From: Charina bottae
Taxonomy: Eukaryota > Chordata > Lepidosauria > Squamata > Charinaidae
NCBI GenBank assembly: GCA_023362775.1
Contig: JALMGJ010000017.1
Location: 21,855,001-21,919,000, forward strand
Direction of reading: 5' to 3'
DNA length: 64,000 nt
The position numbers were made by a program, and so were the translations under genes. How positions within the stretch are numbered: the first letter of the stretch is position 1; each line of letters starts with the position of its first letter. Below, piece by piece: positions 3,416 through 60,900 of this stretch. The notes under the pieces were generated by a model that saw only the letters and a list, made by a program, of their open reading frames with translations, was not told the origin of the DNA and did not search any database.

Positions 3416-3482
3416 CTATACAGTCTCCCCTGTAGCTTCAGTCTGTCAAACTATTAAATCAAATTGTAACTGCTCACTAAAG

Positions 3483-3764
3483 CAGCGGTCCCTAACCTTT
3501 CTGGCACCAGGGACCGGTCGTGGAAGAACATTTTTCCACGGACCTGGGGGGCGGGGTTTGCAGGCGGGAGCCAATTGTGCACACCGGGGGCAGGGTTTGT
3601 AGGCAGGAGCCAATCGCATGCACCGGGGGCAGGGTTTGCAGGTGGGAGCCAATCGCGTGCACCAGGGGTGGGGTAATCGTACGCACCGGGGGGGCAGGGT
3701 TTGCAGGAGGGAGCCCCGTGGCCCACTTCCTAACAGGCTGCGGCCCCCAGGTTGGGGACCCCTG
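3483..3764. mobile_element. Short hAT element, second family (GGTCCCTAACC ends)
   Basis: The ends CAGCGGTCCCTAACC and GGTTGGGGACCCCTG lie inside a perfect 8-bp duplication, CACTAAAG, at 3475-3482 and 3765-3772. The core repeats GGGGCAGGGTTTGCAGG-like units with AGCCAATCGCGTG. The same core motif reappears in the 2.1 kb element at 32310. Confidence 0.92.
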
Positions 3765-4056
3765 CACTAAAGGAATAAGTCTGGCAGTAGCAATTTATCT
3801 GCTTTTACAGTTTCTCTCCCCAACAGGCGAGCCTGGAAATGGAGACTTCTGCAGCTGGAGACGTTTTCCTTTACAGTAGCTAGTTCCTTTGCTTTCCACC
3901 TGGCATTCCTGTTCGATGTAATGGTTGGATTCTCTGTCTGGGAAGTGAGCTGTTTTAAGGCCAAGCCTCTTTGAAGGATTAGGGAAGTTTTACAGGCCTG
4001 AATAGAAAAGTCTAGCAGCAGGTGGTTCCCCCCACACACTTTCGTTTTCTCTAGGT

Positions 4057-17978: not shown

Positions 17979-18380
17979 CAGAGCTTTCCAAACTGTGTGT
18001 CGGGACACATTAGTGTGTGGGCTGCAGTGTCTGGGTGTGTCGCGGCTGCTGCTGCCTCCCAGCCCTGCCAGGATTCCGCGCAGGTCCTAGTGCCTGCCTT
18101 GTGCCTTGCTGCCTCCAAACCTGCTGTGATTCCGTGCAGGTCCTAGTGCCTGCCTTGTGCCTTGCTGCCTCCAAACCTGCTGTGATTCCACGCAGGTCCT
18201 AGTGCCTGCCTTGTGCCCTGCTGCCTCCAAACCTGCTGTGATTCCGCGCAGGTCCTAGTGCCTGCCTTGTGTCCTGCTGTAAGAGTGTGTCACAAAATGA
18301 TGCCCTGCTGTAAGAGTGTGTTGCGAAATGATGCATGTCTAAAAAGTGTGTCACCAACATGAAAAGTTTGGAAAGCTCTG
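17979..18380. mobile_element. Short hAT element, minisatellite-core type
   Basis: CAGAGCTTTCCAAACTG to TTTGGAAAGCTCTG, flanked by AGTTATGC and AGTTATAC (7 of 8 match). The core has about four tandem copies of the ~57-bp unit (CAGGTCCTAGTGCCTGCC), more than any other copy here. Confidence 0.9.
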
Positions 18381-21617: not shown

Positions 21618-22292
21618 AACAATGAACAGTTGTTGTTAACAAAATGCAAGCCGAAAATCCAACAGGTTGCTCTAGCTGATGGATCCATGGCTGATGTGTC
21701 TTTTCAGGGTGAAGTATATATTCCTTGTTTGGGGATAAGTGTGCAAAATGTGTTGTGTGTTCCTACACTTGATTTTTCCCTCCACAGCGTTCCAGCCCTG
21801 GTCAAGTCTGGGTATACTGTTGTTTTCAAGGGTACTGGATGTTCTATTGAAAAAGATGGAATTGAATGTGCTAGGGGAAGATTAGTGAATCAGTTGTATG
21901 AAATGCTACCTAAGCAGGAGATTGTGGCTGGAAATTGTGTTTCCAACGTTCCCCCACATCATAAATGCATTCATTATTTTCACAGAGTACTGGGACATCC
22001 CGGGTGGGGAAGTTTGTCCCAGATGGCCAAGGTGTATCCTGAGCTAAGGTCCAGAAAATGTGAAAACTTTCTTGATTGTACTGTGTGTAAACTATCTAAG
22101 ATCAAGGCTGCGCCTGTTGCTAGGAAAAGTGACAGAGTGTCAACTAGACCATTTCAGTTGGTTCATGGAGACCTAGCTGGCCCCTATGCTCCAAGTGAAG
22201 GAGGGGCACGTTTCATGTTTCTTCTGGTAGATGACCATACTCGCTTTACGTTTTGTTATTTGCTCAAGTCTAAAGCTGAACCTTTGCTTGCT
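21618..22292 (+). pseudogene. Copia pol part 1: protease remnant, zinc-binding, integrase start
   Basis: The frame starts after the deletion at a late protease segment (VALADGSMADVSF, SVPALVKSGYTVVF); the catalytic Asp motif is lost. Next comes the GAG-pre-integrase zinc module HRVLGHPG...CTVCKLSKIK (H-H-C-C), then the first integrase acidic residue in HGDLAGPY and VDDHTRFTF. A one-base loss near 22292-22294 puts the following coding sequence in another frame, and this frame stops at 22305. Confidence 0.88.
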
Positions 22293-22294
22293 TT

Positions 22295-24460
22295 AAGGAG
22301 TTTGTAGCAATGGTGGAGAGAAACTATGGTTATCAAGTGGGTCAGTTTCAGTCTGATCGTGGTGGAGAGTTCCTAAGCCATGAGTTCCAGAATTGGCTTC
22401 ATAGGAAAGGAATCTCCCATAGGCTTGCCAATATTGGTGTTCCAGCTGAGAATGGAATAGCAGAAAGGAAGATTGGTGTTGTTAATACCATTAAAAATAG
22501 CCTGATGTTAGATGCTCAGGTGCCATCCCATTTCTGGGGTGAGGCTATCATGACTGCAGTGTATCTAACTAACAGGTTGTGGAATTCATCTGTAAATGAA
22601 GTTCCTTACTTCCTTTTGTTTGGCAAGTGCCCTTCGCTGAAGTACCTACGTGTCTTTGGAACATTTGCATATGTTCACATCCCCAAGTCTCAGCGAAGGA
22701 AGAACCAACCAAAAGCACAGCGCTTAAGGTTTGTTGGTTATTCATCAAGACCTAAGGGTTACCGTTTTTCTTCAGGCTATGGTCAAGTGGTAATCTCCAG
22801 AAGTGCTAATTTTGAGCATCCTACTGGTTGGGAAAGGTTAAATGCTAGTTCAGAAGTGTTGTTGCAATCTAGTGTATCACCTACTGTCCATGCTCCAGTA
22901 AATGGACAACAACCAGTCCAGGTACCTTCTGTTCCCCAGTCTCCTAGTGTGGTGAAAAGGTCCCCTCAGGTGAAGAAAGAAGAAATTTCACCTGAACAGG
23001 TTCAGGACCTGGAGGGGGAGTCAGGTAGTGAAAAAACAGAAGACAGTGATGAGGAAGGTGCAGTGGTCATTCCTCGTAGGTTTTCTCGTTCCACAAAGGG
23101 TGTGAAGCCTGACAGATTTGTGATTCAGCAGGTGAGAGTGTGTCAAATTACCTGTGAACCTCAGTCTTTTCAAGAGGTGTTGCTCCTGCCTGTTGAGGAG
23201 CAGGAGAAATGGAACACGGCTATGGATAATGAGTTTGAGGCTTTAGTGAGTCAAAAGGTGTTTGAAGTCACTGACCTGCCCCCATCCCAGAAAGCTGTAG
23301 GTTCCAGATGGGTATTCAGAAAGAAGCTTCTTCCTGATAATACAGTGCAGTACAAAGCCAGGCTTGTTGCTCAGGGATTTTCACAAGAAAGGTTTTTAAA
23401 CTATGATCTCACTTATGCACCCACAGCTAGACCAGAGTCTCTATGTATGGTACATTCTCTGGCTGCACAGCGTGAAATGGTTGTCCATCATTTTGATGTT
23501 GACACAGCATATTTGAATGCAGATCTCCCTGAAACAGTGTACATGAAGCAGGCTCCTGGCTATACTTGTGACAATTCCCAGAAAGTCTACAGACTATGCA
23601 AGGCGCTTTATGGGTTAAAGCAGGCCGGTTGTTGTTGGCATCAATGCTTGGATGCAGCTTTAACAGAACTGGGATTTAAAAAGTCACTTGCTGATCCCTG
23701 TGTGTACATAAGAGGTTCTGGAAGTAACTATACAGTACTTCTTACTTATGTGGATGATTTTTGCTTAGCAACTGGATCTGTACACCTTGTACAAGAATTT
23801 GCCAATCAGCTGAGGCAGTATTTTCAGCTGAATGATTTGGGCAAACTTAAATACTATCTGGGTGTTGAAGTTTCTAGATCTCAGAGTGGTGAGTTTTATC
23901 TGAGTCAGAAGAGAAAAATTGATCAGTTGTTGGTTCAGCTTGATATGTCAGATGCAAAACCTACCAAAACCCCAATAGTTCTTGATTTCCTACAGAGTGA
24001 CACGTGTGAGGAACCTTGTCCCCACCCTGATTTATATCACTCTGCTGTAGGTAGTTTGCTTCACTTAACACAGTGGACATGTCCTGACTTAGCTTACCCA
24101 GTTGGAGTGCTAAGTCGTAAGGTAGCCACACTGTCTATGCGAGACTGGCAAGGATTGAAAAGAATCCTATGTTATCTCAAAGGCACAGCAAATCTCTGCC
24201 TTAAAGTGTCATTTAATAAGCCTGAAATGCCTGTGATCTATGTTGATAGTTCCTTTGCAGAGGAGGGGGATAGAAAATCTGTGAGTGGTTTTCTGTGTCA
24301 GTTTGCTGGTTTTTCTGTTGCCTGGCACTCCAGAAAGCAAACATCAGTGGCAATCTCCACCGCGGAGGCGGAGTACGCCGCCCTCAGTGAGGCAGTAAAT
24401 GAACTACGCTGGTGTAATCAACTATTTCATGATCTAACTGTAAACATAAACTTGCCTTAA
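22295..24460 (+). pseudogene. Copia pol part 2: integrase end, RT, RNase H start
   Basis: The open frame holds the second and third integrase catalytic residues (QSDRGGEF, and Glu in NGIAERKIG). It continues with the linker and the RT: AVGSRWVFRKK, HFDVDTAYLNADL, YGLKQAGCCWHQ and the catalytic LTYVDDFCLA. RNase H follows with VIYVDSSFAEE and STAEAEYAALSEAV. It stops at TAA 24458-24460, a few bases before the hAT insertion. About 720 codons stay open, so decay has been light. Confidence 0.9.
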
Positions 24461-32060: not shown

Positions 32061-33155
32061 TCTAGTTTCACCAACCTGGTGCTGTCCCAACATGCTGGGA
32101 TTATAACTGATATTATCCACAGACTACTATCTGCTGTCCCAACACATTCATAAAATGCTAGGTTGGGGAAATCTGGAGTAATTTTTGGGAAATGAAAATA
32201 TTAGTTCCTACAATGAATATATGTGTTATTAGAATCCATCAAGTAATTAATCTGAATCAAATCACAACTATGAAGCTATCTTTTAATTAATAAGGATGAC
32301 CACCTAGAACAGGGGTTGGCAAACGTTTTATGCCGGGAGCCATTTTGACATGCTCGTGCACATTTTGAAATGCTCGAGAGCCAGGGGGCGGGGTTTGCTG
32401 GCAGGGGCCAATCGCGTGGAAGGGGGCGGGGTTTCCGGGCGGGAGCCAATCACGTGGCTTATTGGGGCGGGTCCTGGGTTTTACATTTTTACCAGTGTAC
32501 TAGTTGGCAAATCTTACAAGATGGCAATTTCAAGCTTGTGTTGCTTAGGGCAGCCCCTGCCTTGCAAAAGCGGGAGTTTCTACTGTATTTAGATTCGCTC
32601 AGGCATTCCAGCAGGCTGGAAGTAGCACAAACGAAATGAAAGCCTGGTTAGCTTCCACTCGACACCTGGCTCCATCAGCTCTTTAAAACTAGCGGTCAAC
32701 ACACATCTAGCGGCAGTGGATTTAGAAAGCTAATAAGCTACTACGCTAACAACACGCCTTGCGAAGTAACTCTTTCTGTGCCATTTAAACTTAGCGCCAA
32801 AGCCTCCGGTTTATTCGCTTCTCCCACACATACAAACCCTCCCGCCGACATTTCTGTTTATAGCGGTGAGCCTGGGCAGGCGGAGACCAGGGCGGAGACT
32901 CGATTCCAGACTTATTTTCCTGCCTCTTTTAACGCAGATCTTGCGCCCGCAAGCAAGATCCCTCGCCAGCCCTTTCCAGGAAGAGGAGTCCCCACCACCT
33001 CAGCCGTGCCCAGCCCAGCCTCTCTCAATGATGCGGGCGTGGGAGAGCGGAAGGCTGCGCCCTCTCCGCCGGGCGGGACCCGCACCTCCTTCCCCGCCGG
33101 CGCCCGAGCTCAGACGCCAGCCAGGACCCCGCATGGAAGATGCCGCGCGCCGCTA

Positions 33156-33170
33156 GCGCCTGACGTCAAG
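33156..33170. promoter_or_regulatory. CRE-like palindrome in CpG-rich core
   Basis: CCTGACGTCAAGG contains the palindromic TGACGTCA bound by CREB/ATF factors, within dense CpG sequence. It is a motif match only. Confidence 0.4.
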
Positions 33171-33866
33171 GCGGCTGCGCTTCCGCGCCCGGCGGGCGGG
33201 CGAGGCAGGGAGAGAAGGGGAGACAGAGGGGCTCCCTCTCCGGCCTCTGCGCCCCTTCAGGCCCGTCTCTCCGAGGGGGGCGGCGGGAGGGAACTCCCCG
33301 TCCAAGGGGAAGCGCTGGGAACGAGCGGCGGAGGTTGTCCGGCTCCTAGAGCGGCTGCCGTGGGCAACTTCTCCGCTCTGCCCGGCTCAAAACCTGGGGC
33401 AACCGGACCGACAGAGCCGCCTCTCCCGGCAGGGCAGAGTTAACCGCGCGGTCGCTTCCCCGGCACACACCCGCGCCTTCCCCCGAGCAACCCGAGTTCT
33501 GCCTGCGCGTGTGAATGCGCGCAAACCAAAGCCGCGGGTGGGGGGTGGAGGAGGGAAAAGCGAGCCCCGGTCAACTTTTCCGAACGGTACCTTCCTCGGG
33601 GGAGGCGCGGGCGGGCTTCGTCCCCGGTCTCCCTGTTCTTTGGAGAAGCCCGAGCTGAGGGGCCCCCGGTGCCCTCCCAGCATCCCATGCCGGGCGCCAG
33701 GAAGCGCCGCCGGATCACCTGCTGCACGGAGAGGAGGAACCACGGCCGCCCGCCGGGGCCCGCCGATGGAAGCACCAGCTTTTGCAAAAGCTTAATAAAA
33801 GGTCGCTGCTAACTACTGTGTGTGTTTGTTGTGAGTCTGTGGTAAGCAGAGGCTTGAATCTCACAC

Positions 33867-33958
33867 CGAGCGTCCCCGCTGCTTCTCTCCCGGCCGGCGG
33901 CGGCCTCGCTCTCGCCCTCCGAGCCGGAGCTGCTGTAGTCGACCAGCGCCGCGCTCAT
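33867..33958 (-). pseudogene. USB1: USB1-like first coding exon, captured
   Basis: From ATG at 33956-33958 the minus frame reads MSAALVDYSSSGSEGESE and about 12 more residues, then a donor CGCTCG|GTGTGAG. Human USB1 (U6 snRNA 3' phosphodiesterase), as I recall it, starts with a nearly identical Ser/Glu-rich leader. CTTCCGG/CCGGAAG ETS-type motifs flank the ATG, as in housekeeping promoters. No later USB1 exon or HxS catalytic motif is seen in the window. The piece sits inside a hAT element with target duplications, so I call it a captured fragment rather than the working gene. Confidence 0.7.
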
Positions 33959-34133
33959 GGCCGGAAGCAGGAGAGGCGACCGCCGGCTCGCTTCCGGGTT
34001 CAGCTCCAAAGATCGGGTGGGCCGCCTGTGGAGCAGGAGTCTGTGGAGTTTGGGGGCGGGATCCAATCGCGTGGAAGGGGCGGGGGTGAGTTCAGCTGCG
34101 GAAGAGCCACACTCAAGGGAAACAGCAATGCAG

Positions 34134-34293
34134 GTAAGTCGCGCCGGTCTTTTTTTCGCGCCTCTGGGAAGCAGGGCCAATCGGGCTTCGCCTTGTTCAG
34201 CCCGCCTCTCTGTTGTCCTTTGGCACGCGCTGATTGGTGGAGGCGTCCTTCCTTCTGAGCCTCCACCAATCAGCGTCTCTGTTTCTTCCCCAG
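34134..34293 (+). other. Intron-like segment in hAT element
   Basis: A perfect donor, ATGCAG|GTAAGT, and a good acceptor, TTTCTTCCCCAG|GG, enclose 160 nt on the plus strand. This suggests a spliced leader, either captured with the promoter DNA or belonging to the element's ancestor. No coding frame can be assigned to either flank. Confidence 0.45.
34229..34274. promoter_or_regulatory. Perfect 16-bp inverted repeat with CCAAT boxes
   Basis: GCTGATTGGTGGAGGC and GCCTCCACCAATCAGC are separated by 14 nt. Each arm holds a CCAAT/ATTGG element (NF-Y type). It lies inside the intron-like segment. Confidence 0.6.
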
Positions 34294-34430
34294 GGTTCTC
34301 GCCAAGCCTGCTGCTTCCGGAGACCGGCTTTCCGGATGTCGGGCGGCAGACTGAGAGAGCGAGCCAGAGTCGAGGGGCCAAAGAGCCAGATCTAGCTCAA
34401 GAGCTGCCATTTCCAACCCTTGACCTAGAA

Positions 34431-36946: not shown

Positions 36947-39900
36947 CTGTATCGAAAAGAGAAAAACGAAGCATGAGAAATGTCAGAGTAAAATAGGGAG
37001 AAAAATGGTCAGATGAGAAGAGAAACAACAAATCTGGCAATTTCAGCTTTACATACATTTATAAAAGACAACAACAGATATTCAAAGCAAATAGAAACAC
37101 ACTTCAATATGCCTTTCTCAGCCACAAAGGTAGCACAGAAAAGAAGGATGAATGCAAAAGGAAGAAGCTCATACAACAAATATTTTCTGTTGGAGAGCTC
37201 AGTGTTACTTGCTTTTTCAGGATAGAAGCTGTGCCCCTCATGCTATTGTTATTCATTTTTTAAAATTTATTTTTATCCCAAAAGAGGCTTTTTGATACTG
37301 GAGTATCCTAATGCTACCACTGCTCAGATGACAGACATGTGGTTGAGTCAGCAATTTCCTTTCCTTACTGCCTACATTTCCTAGATGGATTATACCATCC
37401 ATCTGCAGCAAACTTTGAAGTATATCATGAAGGGTAGTTCAAGGATGATCCACCTTTTCTTTCTGCCTGTGTCCTGCCTAGGAGCCACAAAGTGTGTGGC
37501 TGAACAACTGCTGTGTGACTCGAATCAGTGCCGTGGAAATGTTCAATTTTTTATTTTATTTTATGGGATTGAGTCCCTTAAGCTATTTGAAGGGAACCAT
37601 TTTGGGTCCAAAGACTGGCTGTAACATTCTGGAAGACTAAAAGTTGCAGAGTAGGTTGAGCTATCGTACATAAATGGAAAATGGTGTATAACTGTAGCAA
37701 GGCTGATGATTTTAGGGAGAATTTTAATGAATATAACCTTACCACTCTTGGTGAAGTAAGTCAGGGAAGAATGTTCACACATTCATGTTTTAATATACAA
37801 TTAACCATTGATTTAATGGAGCTTGTTTAATTGACTTTGGATTTATGGGCAAAATCTAAGCAGGGATATGCCACAATGGAATATTAGTGGCTGTGGCTAA
37901 GCGGAAGGAGGGAGGGTGGAGAGGGTGGCCCTGGGAAGATCAGGGGATATGCTGCACTGGAACAGCAGCAGTTAAAGGCAGGGAGGGAAGGTGCTGGGAA
38001 GTGCAGGGGAAAAGGGACAGGCTGATGGGATCTGCTAGAGCTTCAGTGGTGGCAGCAGAGGGGAGGGAAGGAAAGGAAGATGCTGGGAAGATCAAGAGAT
38101 AGATAGGCAGGGAGCTTGTTGTTAAGGTTAACCCTAAATTTTATGGGCACTCAGCCCATAAGGGAACCTCTTCTCCCTTATTAGTCTATTAAATGGGAGG
38201 TTTACTTACTTCTATCAGCCTTTTTGGATGGCATGTTAGATCATATCTGATTATATGATGTCAGTGACATTGAATCAATAGTTCATCTGCTGTTGCACTG
38301 CCTATATTATAGAAACTTCTCTTAGCTAAGACTCCAGGAAATGCCAAACAATTATATAGAAAATTCTTATTACAAGATTAATCTCCAGAACAATTGAAAA
38401 AGTGATGACCTGGGAAGTAAGAAGTCCTTTTTGTATTTGTGTGTGTGTTTTTTTTAGTTTTTCTTCTTTGTTTTTCCTTTTGGAGGTGGTAAAGGGAGAA
38501 GGGGTAGAAGAAAGTAGAGTAGAGGGAGTGAGGAAGTGGAGTTAAAAGAAGGGTAGAGAAGAAAGAGGAAGAAAGGAGAGAAAGAAAGAGGATGAGAAGA
38601 AAAAAGAAGAAAAGAGGGTTATTAATAACTACCAAATTAGAAAGTGTAGAGGTTAGTCAGTTTTGGTTAGCTTTGTCAAACAGGAAGAAGTATTGTTTTT
38701 GTTTTGTTTTGTTTTGTTTTGTTTTGTTTTGTTTTGTTTTGTTTTGTTTTGTTTTGTTTTGTTTTGTTGTTTTGTTTTGTTTTGTTTTGTTTTGTTAGGT
38801 TAGGTTAGGTTAGGTTAGTTTAGATTAGATCAAGGTTAATTATGTAAAATTATAAAATGTTAGGGTAGGATATGTTAGGATATGTTTTGGTATATTATGT
38901 TATGTCTGGTATGGTTTTTTCTTTTTATAATGTATTGTTATATATTATTCAAAAATTAATAAAAAATTAATATAAAAAAAAGAAAAAGAAAAAGTGATGA
39001 CCTTTTATGCCAAAGAATGTACAATACGTGAAGGGATTGTTTAGTCTAGTGCATAGCTTTCCAAACTGTGTGTCGGGACACGTTAGTGTGTCGGCTGCAA
39101 TGTCTGGGTGTGTCGCGGCTGCTGCTGCCTCCGAGCCCTGCCAGGATTCCGCGCAGGTCCTAGTGCCTGCCTTGTGCCTTGCTGCCTCCAAACCTGCTGT
39201 GATTCCGCGCAGGTCCCAGTGCCTGCCTTGTGCCCTGCTGTAAGAGTGTGTCATGAAATGAAGAGTGTGTTGTGAAATGATGCATGTCTAAAAAGTGTGT
39301 CACCAACATGAAAAGTTTGGAAAGCTCTGGTCTAGTGCATTGCTTTCCAAACTGTGTGTCGCGACCCAATACTGTGTCGCCTGTGGGGCCCAGGTGTGTC
39401 GTGTCAAAACCCGGAAGCACTGATGGCACGCTGCCGCCGCGTAGACAGCAGCAGGCCATCAGCACTTCCGGGTTTTCGCATGGCACACCAGGACACCGCT
39501 GCGGCGTGCGAAAATCTGAAAGCACTGCGGCGGCATGCAAAAACCCGGAAGCCCCGCGGTGGCAGTGGCGCTTCCGGGTTTTTCCGCGCCGCCACAGTGG
39601 CGGCGCTTCCAGGTTTTCTCATGCACCACCATTGTTGTGTTGCCACGGGGAAAGTTTGGAAAGCCCTGGTCTAGTGGTTAAGGTGCTGGGCTAGAAACCA
39701 GGAGACTGAGAGTTCTAGTCCCGCCTTAGGCATGAAAGCCGGTTGGGTGACCTTGGGCCAGTCACTCTCTCAGCCCAACTCACCTCACAGGGTTGCTGTT
39801 GTGGGGAAAATAGGAGGAGGAAGGGTATTAGGTATGTTCGCCGCCTTGAGTTATTTATAAAAATAATAAAGGCAGGATAAAAATAAAAATAAATGACTAA

Positions 39901-51900: not shown

Positions 51901-54900
51901 TATTTATTTTCTTTAATGAACATCTCCAGGTCTTTTCTGTAGCTAGAGAGACCATAAAATGAGAAATAACCATTAGTAAGTTTGCACTGGAATCCAAGCA
52001 TGCCATGATATTAAATGCACTCTCCCAACAATTTGCTATCTTACCTTTGCAGAAAGGTCAAGAATTCTGTCAAAAGCAAGACCGACATTTGGTTGCCCAG
52101 CTCTGGAGTGATGTTCTCAGCGCGCATTTGTGCTCCATAGATAGTCTAAAACATCCATCCCCCCCAAATAAAAGAATCAGCACTATAACTTTTAATATAT
52201 AACTCTCCTGTTCTACAAGCATGATCATTAACATTTAGGGTGACCATATGTCCCGTTTTGAATGGGACAGTCCCGTTTTTTTTAGCATTTTTTAACCGTC
52301 CCATCGTTTTGATAAAAATCTCAATTTTGTCCCATTTTTTAAACCCGGCGGGAATGGCGCAGAAGGAGGATCTGAGCCGGAGCTGCTGATTGGAGGCAGC
52401 CCAGAAGAGGAAGCCCTCCCATCAGCGCGCAGCAAAGGAGGGACCGGGGGGTGGGGTTTGCAGGCGGGAGCCAATTGTGTGGACCGGGGGGTGGGGACCC
52501 CTGTCTTTTTCATAGAATATTACATAAGACCCCGTCCCATTTTGCCATCCCAATGTCCAGTTTTTGTCTCAAGGAAATATGGTCAGCCTTATTAACATTC
52601 CCTCTAACAGGATTTACTAGTAAGCAAAATGGATAAACCCAAACAACAGTGAGAAATGCATACCATTTGGGAATTAAATAAATAAATTAAAGTTCCAGAA
52701 ACAAATGGACGAGGACTTCTGCTTCAGACCTTAAAACATTTTTTGTCCATGCTTTTCAACCCACTCTTCCACAACCCAATCCCAGTCTGATCGGTACCAC
52801 AAGATTCCTTTTCCAGGCTGACTGAAACCTGGAACCAGGAAATTCCCAAGGATGTTAAAGTGATAATGCATCTTTTGGTGACAGCTTCCACATTTCTATT
52901 CCAGAATGACAAGATTCCCCAGCCCTGTAATTAAGTTCTTCCTGCTTACGTTACAAGCTGAAACTGTGGCTCCACTCCAGCAGTCAGGAATGTTAAGGAT
53001 GTATTTCAATGCACTTTCAAATGAAAATTAGAGTAACCTTAATGGGTTGTGATGTTGGGAAACTTTGAAACTGGAATTGAATTTTTGGAATTTGCACTGG
53101 TTTGCTTCACTGTTTTAATGCATATTGTTTAGTGTGAATATTTAAAGCAGATTTTGGAGCTGAAACTTTGTCTCTTTAAAACTGCAAAGTTAAAGGCTGC
53201 AATAGGATGTGGTTTGTTCCTCTGCCAGCTGATGCAACGTGGGGAAATCACAACTGGCTGAAGGTCTACAGAATCTGTAGATGGAGGTGATGCAGGAAGC
53301 AGGTGGTGAAGACCACAGCTTAGGAAGATGAAGCTTGCAGTGTTGTTCAAACATTTCCTGGTTGCCTGGAGTGGACACACAAGCTGAGCAATCCTGAGGT
53401 AAGGCTGCAAGATTACCATTCTAGGAGAAAAGAAGGCAAAAAGCAGCCAAAGCAAAGAGCCAGTCAAAAAGTCTAAACCAGAAAGCATGGAATTGGTAAG
53501 CTAGACATGAGAGGATAAAAAGAAGAGCATTATGGGTAAGACTCCAGGTAGCATTCCATCACTGCTGGGCATCAAATGCTGTAGTGGCAGTGCGGAAGAC
53601 CATTGTATTTCGAGGAGTTTAAGTGACATATTTTGATGTCTCCTTCGTATTATGAAAATTATAGAAGTTTAGAGTTCATTCTGAGCTATGTTTAACCTGC
53701 TTGTTTTTCACTCTTGCTTGAAAAGGGGGGGGAGAGAAGAGAAAACCCCAAGATTGTTTACGTTAGCACTAGCTTATCTGTATAGCTTCCCAGGCTCTTG
53801 GATTATGTCATAAAGAGGTGCCACAGATCTGGGAACTACCTAGTCAAGGTCAGATCCTGCAGTTTTAGTACCATGGAAACATGGTCAAAAGGTTTTAGTG
53901 CCAGACTTTGATAAAAACCTTAGGATTGCCTCTTGAGTTTGGAGCTTGGCCACAGACCCTGGTACTGGGTGTTGTGTGCAAAATTGGCTTGGGGACTTTC
54001 CGCTGTCGTTTACTGGAGCTCCCAACAGCTGAAGTGAGATTTCTTATCATCTGGCTTGGTATGTTTCCTTGTGTTTCTGTTTAATTTGCCTGCCACACTT
54101 AAACAATAAAGCTTAAATTCTCCTTATTTACTGATATGATCATTGTCTCTGGATCGAAAAGAGCCAATTGTCTGGGCACCTGATCACTGCCTGGACACTT
54201 GGCAAAACAGATGCATGTGCCCACCCTCTGATCTCAGCCCAGCTTCTCTACCTTCTGCATCTGCATTTACAACTTAACTCATTGGGATTATAGCTAGGAT
54301 TGGCTCCTTAACTGCAACCTAAAAAAAAAGGTAAAGGTTCCCCCCCGCACATTTGTGCAGTCGTGTCCGACTCTAGGGGCCGGTGCTCATCTCCGTTTGT
54401 TAGCCAAAGAGCCAGCGTTGTCCGAAGACGCTTCCACGGTCATGTGGCCGGCATGACGCATGCGGAACGCTGTTACCTACCCACCGAAGTGGTACCTATT
54501 CATCTACTTGCATTTGCATGCTTTCGAATTGCTAGGTTGGCAAGAGCTGGGGCTAGTGCGGGAGCTCACTTCGTCACGCGGGGCTAGGGATTCGAACCTC
54601 CAAACTTGCGATCTTCCAATCGACAAGCCTGGCGTCTTACCCGCTGAGCCACCACGCCCCTTTGCTAGCCAGTATAAGCAATGCTAATTCAATTGTACTA
54701 AGGTAAAGGTAAAGGTTCCCCCCGCACATTTGTGCAGTTGTGTCCGACTCTCGGGGCCGGTGCTCATCTCCGTTTCTTAGCCGAAGAGCCAGCGTTGTCC
54801 GAAGACGCTTCCACACTCATGTGCTCTCAGTAATTTGTTTGAACTCTTGATAAAGGAAAAACCTGTCACCTATTTCTTGTCAGTAAACTTTCATTATATC

Positions 54901-57900: not shown

Positions 57901-60900
57901 CCACTATTGAACAGATTCAAATAAGTAACAGCCTGACAGGTAACAATGAAAGAGGCATCCTTAGTGCCATTCTGATCAACATAGGGCTGCTTTACACCAG
58001 CTTAAACTATTTGTTTATCTACCTCAGCATTATCTTCTGGGGATGGAAGAATCTGTTGACTTCAATTTTGCTAATATTCATATTTTTTTTCAATCATAAG
58101 CCTATTACAGCTTTTTTTTGTATCAGTTTGTACATATTTTTAAAACCAGCATGAAAAATGGTATACGTTTTCAGAAGAATGTATTTTCAAATTTCCCTGC
58201 TAATGTGCATTTTGGTAAACATTTTCCCCTAAGGCCTATTTTTAACACATTCTGATGGAATTTTCTCTTCATGGTTGCATTTTTGTATGCATTTTTAATA
58301 GAAGAACTGGATAAAAAGTCTCAAAACTAAAGGCCAATTGCTTTCCAAATCAAGAATTCAATAAATGCTGTATAGGTTACTGGTATGCTTCCAGGTGTGT
58401 TTCAAGATGCTGGCTATAAGCTGTGAAGCCCCATATAGCGTAGGGCCCAGTTACATGAGTGATTGCACATCTTATATACTATCAGACCAATATCAGGCCA
58501 ATTTGATCCAACAAGAGTTGGTGTGCTCCAGGTCCCTTCAATTAAGCATCTATCAGGACCCCAGAAGTCTGTCTTCTCTGTTGTGGCGCCTGCCCTCTGG
58601 AATGAGATTCCCTCTGGTATCTGTGTGGTCCCCATCCTGCTGGCATCCTGGAAAGCCTTAAAGACCTAACTGTTCTCCTAGGCTTTGGGCTAGGTTGGTT
58701 GGGGACCCTGCTAGATTATCTGTAGTTGTGGTTAGATCCACCATCAGTTTTTGTTGTTTACTCTTTGGTTTATTTTTAATTATTGCATCCTGTTTTTATG
58801 TTTTATTGTGGACCAGTTTTATTGTACACTTCCCAGAGTTGGTTGGTGTCTAAATTGGCCAGACTTGTAGTAGAACCCAGAGATAGTACAAATCACTACT
58901 TACTTTGGATAAAAATTCTGCACCCAGGTGAGGAGAAGGTAAATGTCCTTATTGCTCAGTTCAAACTGAGCAAACATCTCTATCTGAGAAGAGAAGCAAT
59001 GGTGGTAGAACTTGGCATAAGTGTTGCACACCTGAAAATGCTCAGGGTAATGGTCTTTAATATGCTGCACCACTGTGATCATGTCCTCTTTCATAGTCTT
59101 CCCCATATGCAAGAAATGGTTAGCAGTGGTAGAGAGGCCCTTGTTATGAACCAAAGGAGGCTCTTTCATTCGTTCTTCTACAGATTTTTGGATAGTGTTC
59201 CTCCATTCCTCTTTCCACTTTCTGGGCTGGGAATGCACAGATCTCTCCTCCTCCTCCACCTGGTTAATTACTGCTCTCACTGCATTATTCAGCAGTTCTG
59301 GCTGTGCTGATGCTATGCTGATAGATGAATATATAATGCCGAGGACCTCTTGCTTTAAATCTTCAAATAAAGCCTCAATTTCAGTCTGATTGCCTAGTGT
59401 TTCTTCTTCACTTCTGCTGTCTAGTGTTTCTTCTTCTCTTCCATTGTCCAGGTGGCTGTTGGATTCTGTTTGCATGGTAAGGAGATGTTGACTGGCTTCA
59501 TAAAAATTTTGTTCCTTAATCAGCTTTTTGATCTGGTCAGCTAGCAAAACAAAGTAGGAATATTGTGGTAGTCAATATCATGTAATTAACAGGTTACTAA
59601 TTCATTCAAGTTATATTCCCCCAACTTCAACTTAAGTGTACTCAGAGCAGTTCATGGTTTAAAAATTGATGTATGTGTTGCTTTTTTTCAAGGAGACAAT
59701 TTAGATTGGTCTCTGTAGCTACCCTAAATTTGTTCTCCATGACTTCAGTGATTACCACTTTAAAAAGGAGGAAAAAGACCTTCTGAGCATACTGTGTAGT
59801 CTCTGTCCTTCTTCGCGGCTGAGAGAGTGAGGGGTCATCCCCAGCATGTTAACCCTCAGAAAGCAGTGAAAAGGCTCTCTGAGGCACTGTGTAATTTCAT
59901 TAAGGCAGAGCTTTCCAAACTGTGTGTGGCGACACAAAAGTGTGTCGCCACACAACCCGGAAGCGCTGATCATCATCAGCGCTTCCGGGTTTTCCCGCGG
60001 CGACACACCAACGGCGGTTGGTGTGTTGCCGCGGGAAAACTTTGGAAAGCCCTGCATTAAGGTCTACTGCCATTCTAGAATGGTTTGGAAGGCAGTCTGG
60101 CATCACAGAACTTATACTACTTCAACTATGGACAAAGTGTGGGAGCTCACCTTGATTATGGGATCTCAACTAAAAAAAAAAAAGAAATCCCACAGTGTTT
60201 CTTGACCTTAATGAGACTTTACTGTCTTTTTGGACTTATGCTCCTCAAGGATGCAAACTCTCTCCAAGAAATAAGCAGACAGAAGGCTGATCTAGCAGCT
60301 TTATTTCTTGCTAATTATTTCCCATCTGTGATCTAAATATTTCTGCTACCTTATTTGGTTGAACTGATCAATCCAGCTTGAAAATAAATTTAATGGACCA
60401 TTCAGGCGAGAGAGTATCTGCTATTCTGGATGTCTACTGAATCCAAAAACGTCATTTCTGGTGATTTATATCATTTGCGTTATGCCATTATTGCACAAAT
60501 GATGCAAATAACTCCTGAATGAAAGCCACGTTAGAAATCTAACGTTTTATAGTAAATCTGTGATGCAGCACATGCAGAGAAGTAATTACTAGTCCAAGAT
60601 CACCTGCCTGAATGAAGGGTTTCAATTCCAAATCTTACCTAGTGGCAGCCATTCCAGCAGGATGATCTCTCACCCGCTGAGATGTGAAGAAGGACAGAGA
60701 CTTATTTATTCAACCTATATGCTGAATGGAAGCTGGATTGGAAGATGAGCATGGTTTTAAAATTGGAGGAAGAAACATCAATAACCTGCATTAAGTTGAT
60801 GTCTACTCTGATAGCTGAAAAGACAAAGGATTTGCAAGCTCTATTAATAAAGGTCAAGGAATACAGTGAAAAAATGGGGCTAAAATTAAATATAAAGAAG

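Follow-up and report, generated by a model that had tools for sequence, protein, structure and literature searches.

A probable multicopy Pack-hAT family carrying host DNA from USB1 and IGFBP7 in the genome of Charina bottae

Introduction

That cut-and-paste elements capture genes is well established for plants. For animals, the available portions of Tan et al. 2021 (PMC8277862) count four multicopy Pack-TIRs among 100 reference genomes and add a family from the fly: the frog Pack-hAT-N8_XT carries 291 bp of the CAPSL 5' UTR in three copies, and the fly Ssk-FB4 family has four copies. A promoter cassette, that of NUBPL, is carried by HelibatN3, which in the accessible text of PMC4778049 acts as an exon trap in cells and yields transcripts in bats. 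For Buster hAT elements, the retrieved part of PMC3517528 gives a target site duplication (TSD) consensus of 5'-nnnTAnnn-3'.

Here we describe a family of elements in the Charina bottae assembly (1.80 Gb, 278 contigs), with one copy lying in a stretch of 64,000 bp (the window; C79:21855001-21919000). We read it, with a probability of about 0.9, as a multicopy, non-autonomous Pack-hAT with Buster-like targets. We found no report of this family among open-licence PMC papers.

Results

A hAT element with a mosaic interior

The window copy is a 2113-bp non-autonomous hAT element (32310-34422). The inverted ends and the perfect 8-bp duplication claimed in the original prediction were both confirmed: the ends, CAGGGGTTGGCAAAC on the left and CAAGGGTTGGAAATGG on the right, are imperfect inverted repeats, and a perfect 8-bp TSD, ACCTAGAA, lies on both flanks. 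Copies across the genome were assigned by us to classes A to D from shared segments, the window copy being of class A. Its features are:

32302-32309, no strand: left TSD ACCTAGAA, 8 bp.
32310-32472, plus strand: left hAT end with TIR CAGGGGTTGGCAAAC and 38-bp subterminal repeats at 32383-32457, common to class B.
32487-33037, plus strand: captured region in front of IGFBP7, up to the ATGCGGG start; 95.8% identity to C110:167064526-167065076.
33034-33620, no strand: GC-rich, CpG-rich core, common to classes B and C.
33621-33766, minus strand: captured USB1, comprising the start of intron 1, the donor and the 3' part of exon 1; 91% identity to C57:144677-144822.
33767-33865, no strand: 99-bp TG...CA insert, solo-LTR-like, with AATAAA inside and CCGA at 33763-33766 and 33866-33869.
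33866-33981, minus strand: captured USB1, comprising the coding start of exon 1 (ATG at 33958, MSAALVDYSSSGSEGESEAAAGRERSSGDAR) and adjoining upstream bases; 99.1% identity to C57:144819-144934.
33982-34011, minus strand: captured USB1 upstream DNA, beyond the point where 76 host bp are absent, placed by the class D alignment.
34104-34119, plus strand: GAGCCACACTCAAGGG, internal here and occurring also in the right hAT end of class D.
34361-34422, minus strand: right hAT end, inverted repeat CAAGGGTTGGAAATGG.
34423-34430, no strand: right TSD ACCTAGAA, 8 bp.

The absence of a transposase was borne out too in nine open frames of this copy, one of them extending past the right end of the element: they contain no Pfam domain at E<=0.01, and hence no recognisable transposase. 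An Rfam scan of the window gave nothing at gathering scores. G+C content is 0.62 and the CpG observed/expected ratio 0.83 within the element, against 0.42 and 0.31 elsewhere in the window. The CpG-rich interior is therefore as described, but it is not one USB1 island, since it is a mosaic whose segment 32487-33037 derives from IGFBP7. The core at 33034-33620 contains a TGACGTCA site and is found in classes A, B and C.

Other repeats lie nearby. A separate short hAT-like element at 3475-3772 has at least three 38-39 bp repeats resembling the left-end repeats of the 32310-34422 element and an 8-bp repeat, CACTAAAG, on either side (3475 and 3765), and a fragment with the same hAT repeat motif sits within another repeat at 52380-52513. 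A copia-like retrotransposon at 22280-24457 has a long open frame of 726 aa in which RVT_2 and integrase-related domains are found. By eye, three related 56-61 bp tandem arrays occur in the 64 kb, at 1676-1857 (opposite orientation), 18049-18279 and 39122-39240.

Target sites and ends point to hAT transposition

The same structure recurs across the genome, so it is not due to chance. Reading copies in register, which is the stricter test and the one we rely on, we found the 8-bp duplication exact at the ends in 29 of 35 copies, and TA at positions 4-5 in 32 of the 35. A looser test, allowing the ends to shift by up to 2 bases, gave 19 perfect duplications out of 20 (28 loci, 8 with one end not found); L002 and L013 drop out under the stricter one. 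TIRs of hAT elements are short and start with CAGGG or CAAGG. The present family combines 8-bp TSDs with short inverted ends of this form, those of class D being CAGGGGTCGGCAAAC and CAGTGGTCGGCAAAC.

Helitrons, to our knowledge, make no TSDs. Spread of the family by a Helitron or by segmental duplication instead of hAT transposition is thus extremely improbable in view of the 8-bp TSDs with TA centres and the inverted CAGGGG ends, even if Helitrons have captured and amplified promoters in bats, according to the part of PMC4778049 available to us.

Copies fall into related classes

A whole-genome search with the element (40 scored of 5873 first-look candidates) returned near full-length copies at 93-96% identity and others that are partial. 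With the USB1 exon as query, every one of the 40 scored among 107 candidates was a match: 39 element copies (11 of class A, 13 of class B and 15 of class D) and the host gene. The family is thus multicopy, a condition raised in the original prediction, with at least 39 USB1-exon copies and TSDs of their own; the true number may be near 100.

Class A, to which the window copy belongs, carries the USB1 piece, the 99-bp insert and the IGFBP7-derived segment (element positions 178-728). Class B also carries the USB1 piece split by the 99-bp insert, and has other sequence in place of segment 178-728. In class C most of the USB1 piece is gone and 42 bp of its intron part are retained; two full copies with perfect TSDs measure 2350 and 2942 bp. 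Class D elements are about 1.0 kb long (950-1090 bp in 10 of 15 copies, longer in 5) and have an unsplit USB1 piece with the start of intron 1, the donor, exon 1 and upstream DNA. Some of them vary further: L050, L060 and L063 (1300-1314 bp) have in common an extra segment of about 310 bp, while L054 and L056 bear differing LTR-like inserts of about 0.75-0.8 kb, called by eye.

Consensus sequences were built from 9 copies of class A, 10 of class B and 10 of class D. Not included are the 5 longer D copies with extra inserts, six B copies retrieved later, and six A copies that are partial or carry deletions. The copies were the best-scoring ones, so that all absolute divergences given here lean low.

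The USB1 host gene lies on another contig

The element exon had been called USB1-like, and its peptide is in fact identical to the first 31 residues of the host USB1 (31/31), a locus that was sought and located on contig C57. Genome-wide, PF09749 (the Usb1 family) matches two exons, both on the minus strand of C57 (6 of 6 candidates scored), and a USB1 gene continuing beside the window exon, which would have contradicted the original prediction, was not seen. When searched against PDB, the host exon-2 peptide gave C16orf57, which we take to be the older name of USB1, as its sole match below E 0.1 (E 1.8e-4); the 31-residue leader gave no match up to E 10. In host exon 1 the coding part spans 137 nt, C57:144911 down to 144775, and reads MSAALVDYSSSGSEGESEAAAGRERSSGDARRAPAGGRGSSSPRS with two further bases; a GTAATC donor follows it.

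The USB1 piece is not a retrocopy, because intron 1 and upstream DNA are included. A TNFAIP2 exon does lie within the window (58903-59571, minus strand, the strand of the USB1 exon), but an independent host gene or retrocopy beside TNFAIP2, with hAT ends by coincidence, has next to no probability: the same structure stands at many sites with TSDs, and USB1-domain matches occur genome-wide only on C57.

The two USB1 blocks are contiguous in the host and 99 bp apart in the window element. The sequence between them is the insert at 33767-33865, which starts with TG, ends with CA, contains AATAAA and has CCGA on both sides. With such ends, a short TSD and a poly(A) signal, it looks like a solo LTR. 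It is present neither in host USB1 nor in any of the 15 class D copies. As a consequence for the window copy, the frame from the USB1 start enters the insert for 18 codons and then meets a stop within it. The good donor previously placed after ...GDAR proved to be the edge of this insert, which the host gene lacks; the site corresponding to the host donor is at 33719/33718 (exon side/intron side), beyond the insert.

The match to the host is most complete in class D. Positions 511-978 of its consensus (consD) align with C57:144677-145162, 486 bp of host DNA. The two differ at 13 of 410 aligned sites, 8 of these differences falling in the 301 sites without CpG context, and by three indels of 76, 39 and 19 bp. 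The 76-bp host stretch (C57:144932-145007) starts 21 bp upstream of the USB1 start codon and is missing from class D, and likewise from the window copy; in this comparison of element and host, it could instead have been gained by the host. The 39 and 19 bp are present in class D and absent from the host. At its right edge in class D, the host segment passes into GAGCCACACTCAAGGGG of the hAT end. Together, the host locus on C57, the many copies and the 486-bp class D match sustain the central claim, a transduplicated Pack-type hAT with host promoter-region DNA and USB1 exon 1.

A second captured region, from in front of IGFBP7

Class A contains DNA of a second host gene. Its specific segment (query: window 32490-33030) was found at 16 places genome-wide (16 of 16 candidates scored), 15 of them inside element copies, one partial. 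The 16th, C110:167064526-167065076, has no other strong element match within 10 kb and is followed immediately by an open frame that encodes IGFBP and Kazal domains; the top PDB match of this frame is IGFBP7 (E 8.6e-34). The class A consensus differs from the C110 segment at 10 of 548 aligned sites.

The captured part terminates at ATGCGGG, the first codons of IGFBP7, and at this class A junction CGGG occurs on both the IGFBP7 and the class B side. Such microhomology fits the template switching proposed for animal Pack-TIRs in the consulted sections of PMC8277862. In class A the two captured upstream regions face each other, that of IGFBP7 on the plus strand and that of USB1 on the minus strand. 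We infer the labels "promoter" and "5' UTR" for the USB1 and IGFBP7 parts from their position and base composition.

Nested structure suggests an order of events

The classes are nested, and it is on this structure that an order of events rests. Class D looks nearest to the founder capture, because it matches the host over 486 bp save for the three indels. Stretch 1387-1558 of the class B consensus is 100% identical to consD 653-824, and GAGCCACACTCAAGGG has been retained internally in both A and B; we infer the order D-like, B, A.

Class C is harder to place. In its 42-bp USB1 remnant, 6 of the 42 sites are mismatched with the host, compared with 9 of 368 in the rest of class D. Over those same 42 sites class D differs at 4, so the excess is mostly shared; an independent earlier capture of USB1 in class C is possible. 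That class C is the ancestor from before the capture is less likely: the 42 bp of USB1 intron homology end at its deletion point.

One class C copy (L047, C2:2363600-2368500) has a first-exon-like open frame, MAAPEFSPERLACRLAEVEALLAVHVSEPVRARWRWAVKLDEPPDLEHFRTQL, reading downward from element position 444 on the reverse strand, possibly another captured host exon. PDB and Pfam searches gave no convincing match for this peptide or for one class D frame.

CpG decay and the captured exon

We counted transitions against the class consensus in the 29 copies. At CpG sites they amount to 8.0% in class A, 8.0% in class B and 9.2% in class D (9, 10 and 10 copies), and at other sites to 0.4%, 0.4% and 0.5%; CpG sites have thus changed about 20 times more. 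The USB1 pieces are not clearly spared, with CpG transitions of 9.8 and 5.8% in A, 7.1 and 7.2% in B, and 8.2% in D. This excess is a mark of germline methylation, implying that the copies are mostly methylated in the germline, and from their base changes those examined look mostly silenced. Given this decay, the window copy is most likely CpG-rich because it is young.

We then considered the coding sequence. The 31-codon part is present in 43 copies among 56 fetched element loci. Reading is ungapped from codon 1 in 39 of these, 38 of them stop-free; the 43 include one with a frameshift, one with a stop and three lacking the start region. The 39 ungapped copies hold 129 changes, of which 102 are CpG transitions. 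Nonsynonymous changes make up 54 of these 102 (53%, against 57% expected) and 19 of the 27 others (79% expected). These shares are near expectation, and selection on the leader is thus not apparent: the 39 ungapped copies give no sign of purifying selection, and the exon appears to drift as if neutral.

These data bear on whether the family is a portable promoter that also traps exons, with transcription starting in some copies, chiefly those of class D, and the USB1 leader being spliced onto genes nearby. In favour, the start codon, an open exon 1 and the GT donor are retained in the class D consensus, most exon copies are ungapped and free of stops, and a like configuration has been shown to trap exons for HelibatN3 (PMC4778049, in the text available). 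Nevertheless, we consider such trapping rather unlikely, as CpG decay far exceeds that of other sites even in the USB1 part, the nonsynonymous share is that expected without selection, 76 bp of host upstream DNA are absent, and a few of the exon copies have lost their frame or their start. The spread of a working promoter, which the original prediction made conditional on multiple copies, finds no support on like grounds: CpG decay speaks for methylation, the 76 upstream bp are missing in class D and the window copy, and the exon of the latter is split by the insert. In our Pack-hAT reading, the captured parts are most likely passengers, which might occasionally have the potential to give nearby genes a promoter, a first exon and a donor.

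Discussion

The elements described here have parental loci outside the element, USB1 and IGFBP7, and the same chimera occurs at distinct TSDs, as in a multicopy Pack-TIR. Template switching at short homologies would have brought a copy of a host segment into a hAT element, and the chimera, having retained both transposase-recognised ends, would have been moved by a hAT transposase encoded elsewhere. A D-like form would have given rise to B and then to A, in which the region in front of IGFBP7 replaced part of B, while class C would have lost nearly all of the USB1 piece. The copies would since have been mostly methylated and decaying neutrally.

A broader scenario is that of a hAT lineage repeatedly collecting CpG-island promoters and first exons of its host (USB1, IGFBP7, the unnamed class C frame and the unplaced CpG-rich core), a mobile promoter and exon-trap kit of which some unmethylated copies would drive chimeric transcripts. 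The core at 33034-33620 may be a further captured promoter. We regard the scenario as a whole as rather unlikely.

Within one genome, the family combines two sourced host genes with dozens of copies. Because a simple class near the founder and its nested derivatives can still be read, the steps of capture are traceable. CpG decay moreover offers a natural way of testing whether promoter regions stay free of methylation once captured, and the copies counted mostly did not.

Several known systems resemble this family. The 8-bp nnnTAnnn TSD is the same as that of the Buster-group hAT Mar (PMC3517528, in the portion retrieved), an assignment made by target site only. Plant Pack-TYPE elements, as the available part of PMC8903248 describes them, are likewise TIR elements that shuffle coding DNA; they are plant families, likened here by description only. 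HelibatN3, going by the accessible text of PMC4778049, shares the capture and amplification of a promoter region, the start of a first coding exon and a splice donor, but it is a rolling-circle Helitron with 6 codons and demonstrated expression, whereas the present family has the 137-nt coding part of exon 1 and is known from sequence. Closest are the animal Pack-TIRs (PMC8277862, in the sections consulted): there, too, a hAT element carries a piece of a host gene at distinct TSDs, far from the parent gene, and the short homology at our breakpoint fits the fork-stalling and template-switching model of Tan et al. The frog Pack-hAT-N8_XT and the fly Ssk-FB4, in those same sections, carry one gene each, compared with two identified host genes and at least 39 copies (107 candidates) here. 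The present family is therefore of a known kind, a two-gene multicopy Pack-hAT, with more copies than the published animal cases that we found.
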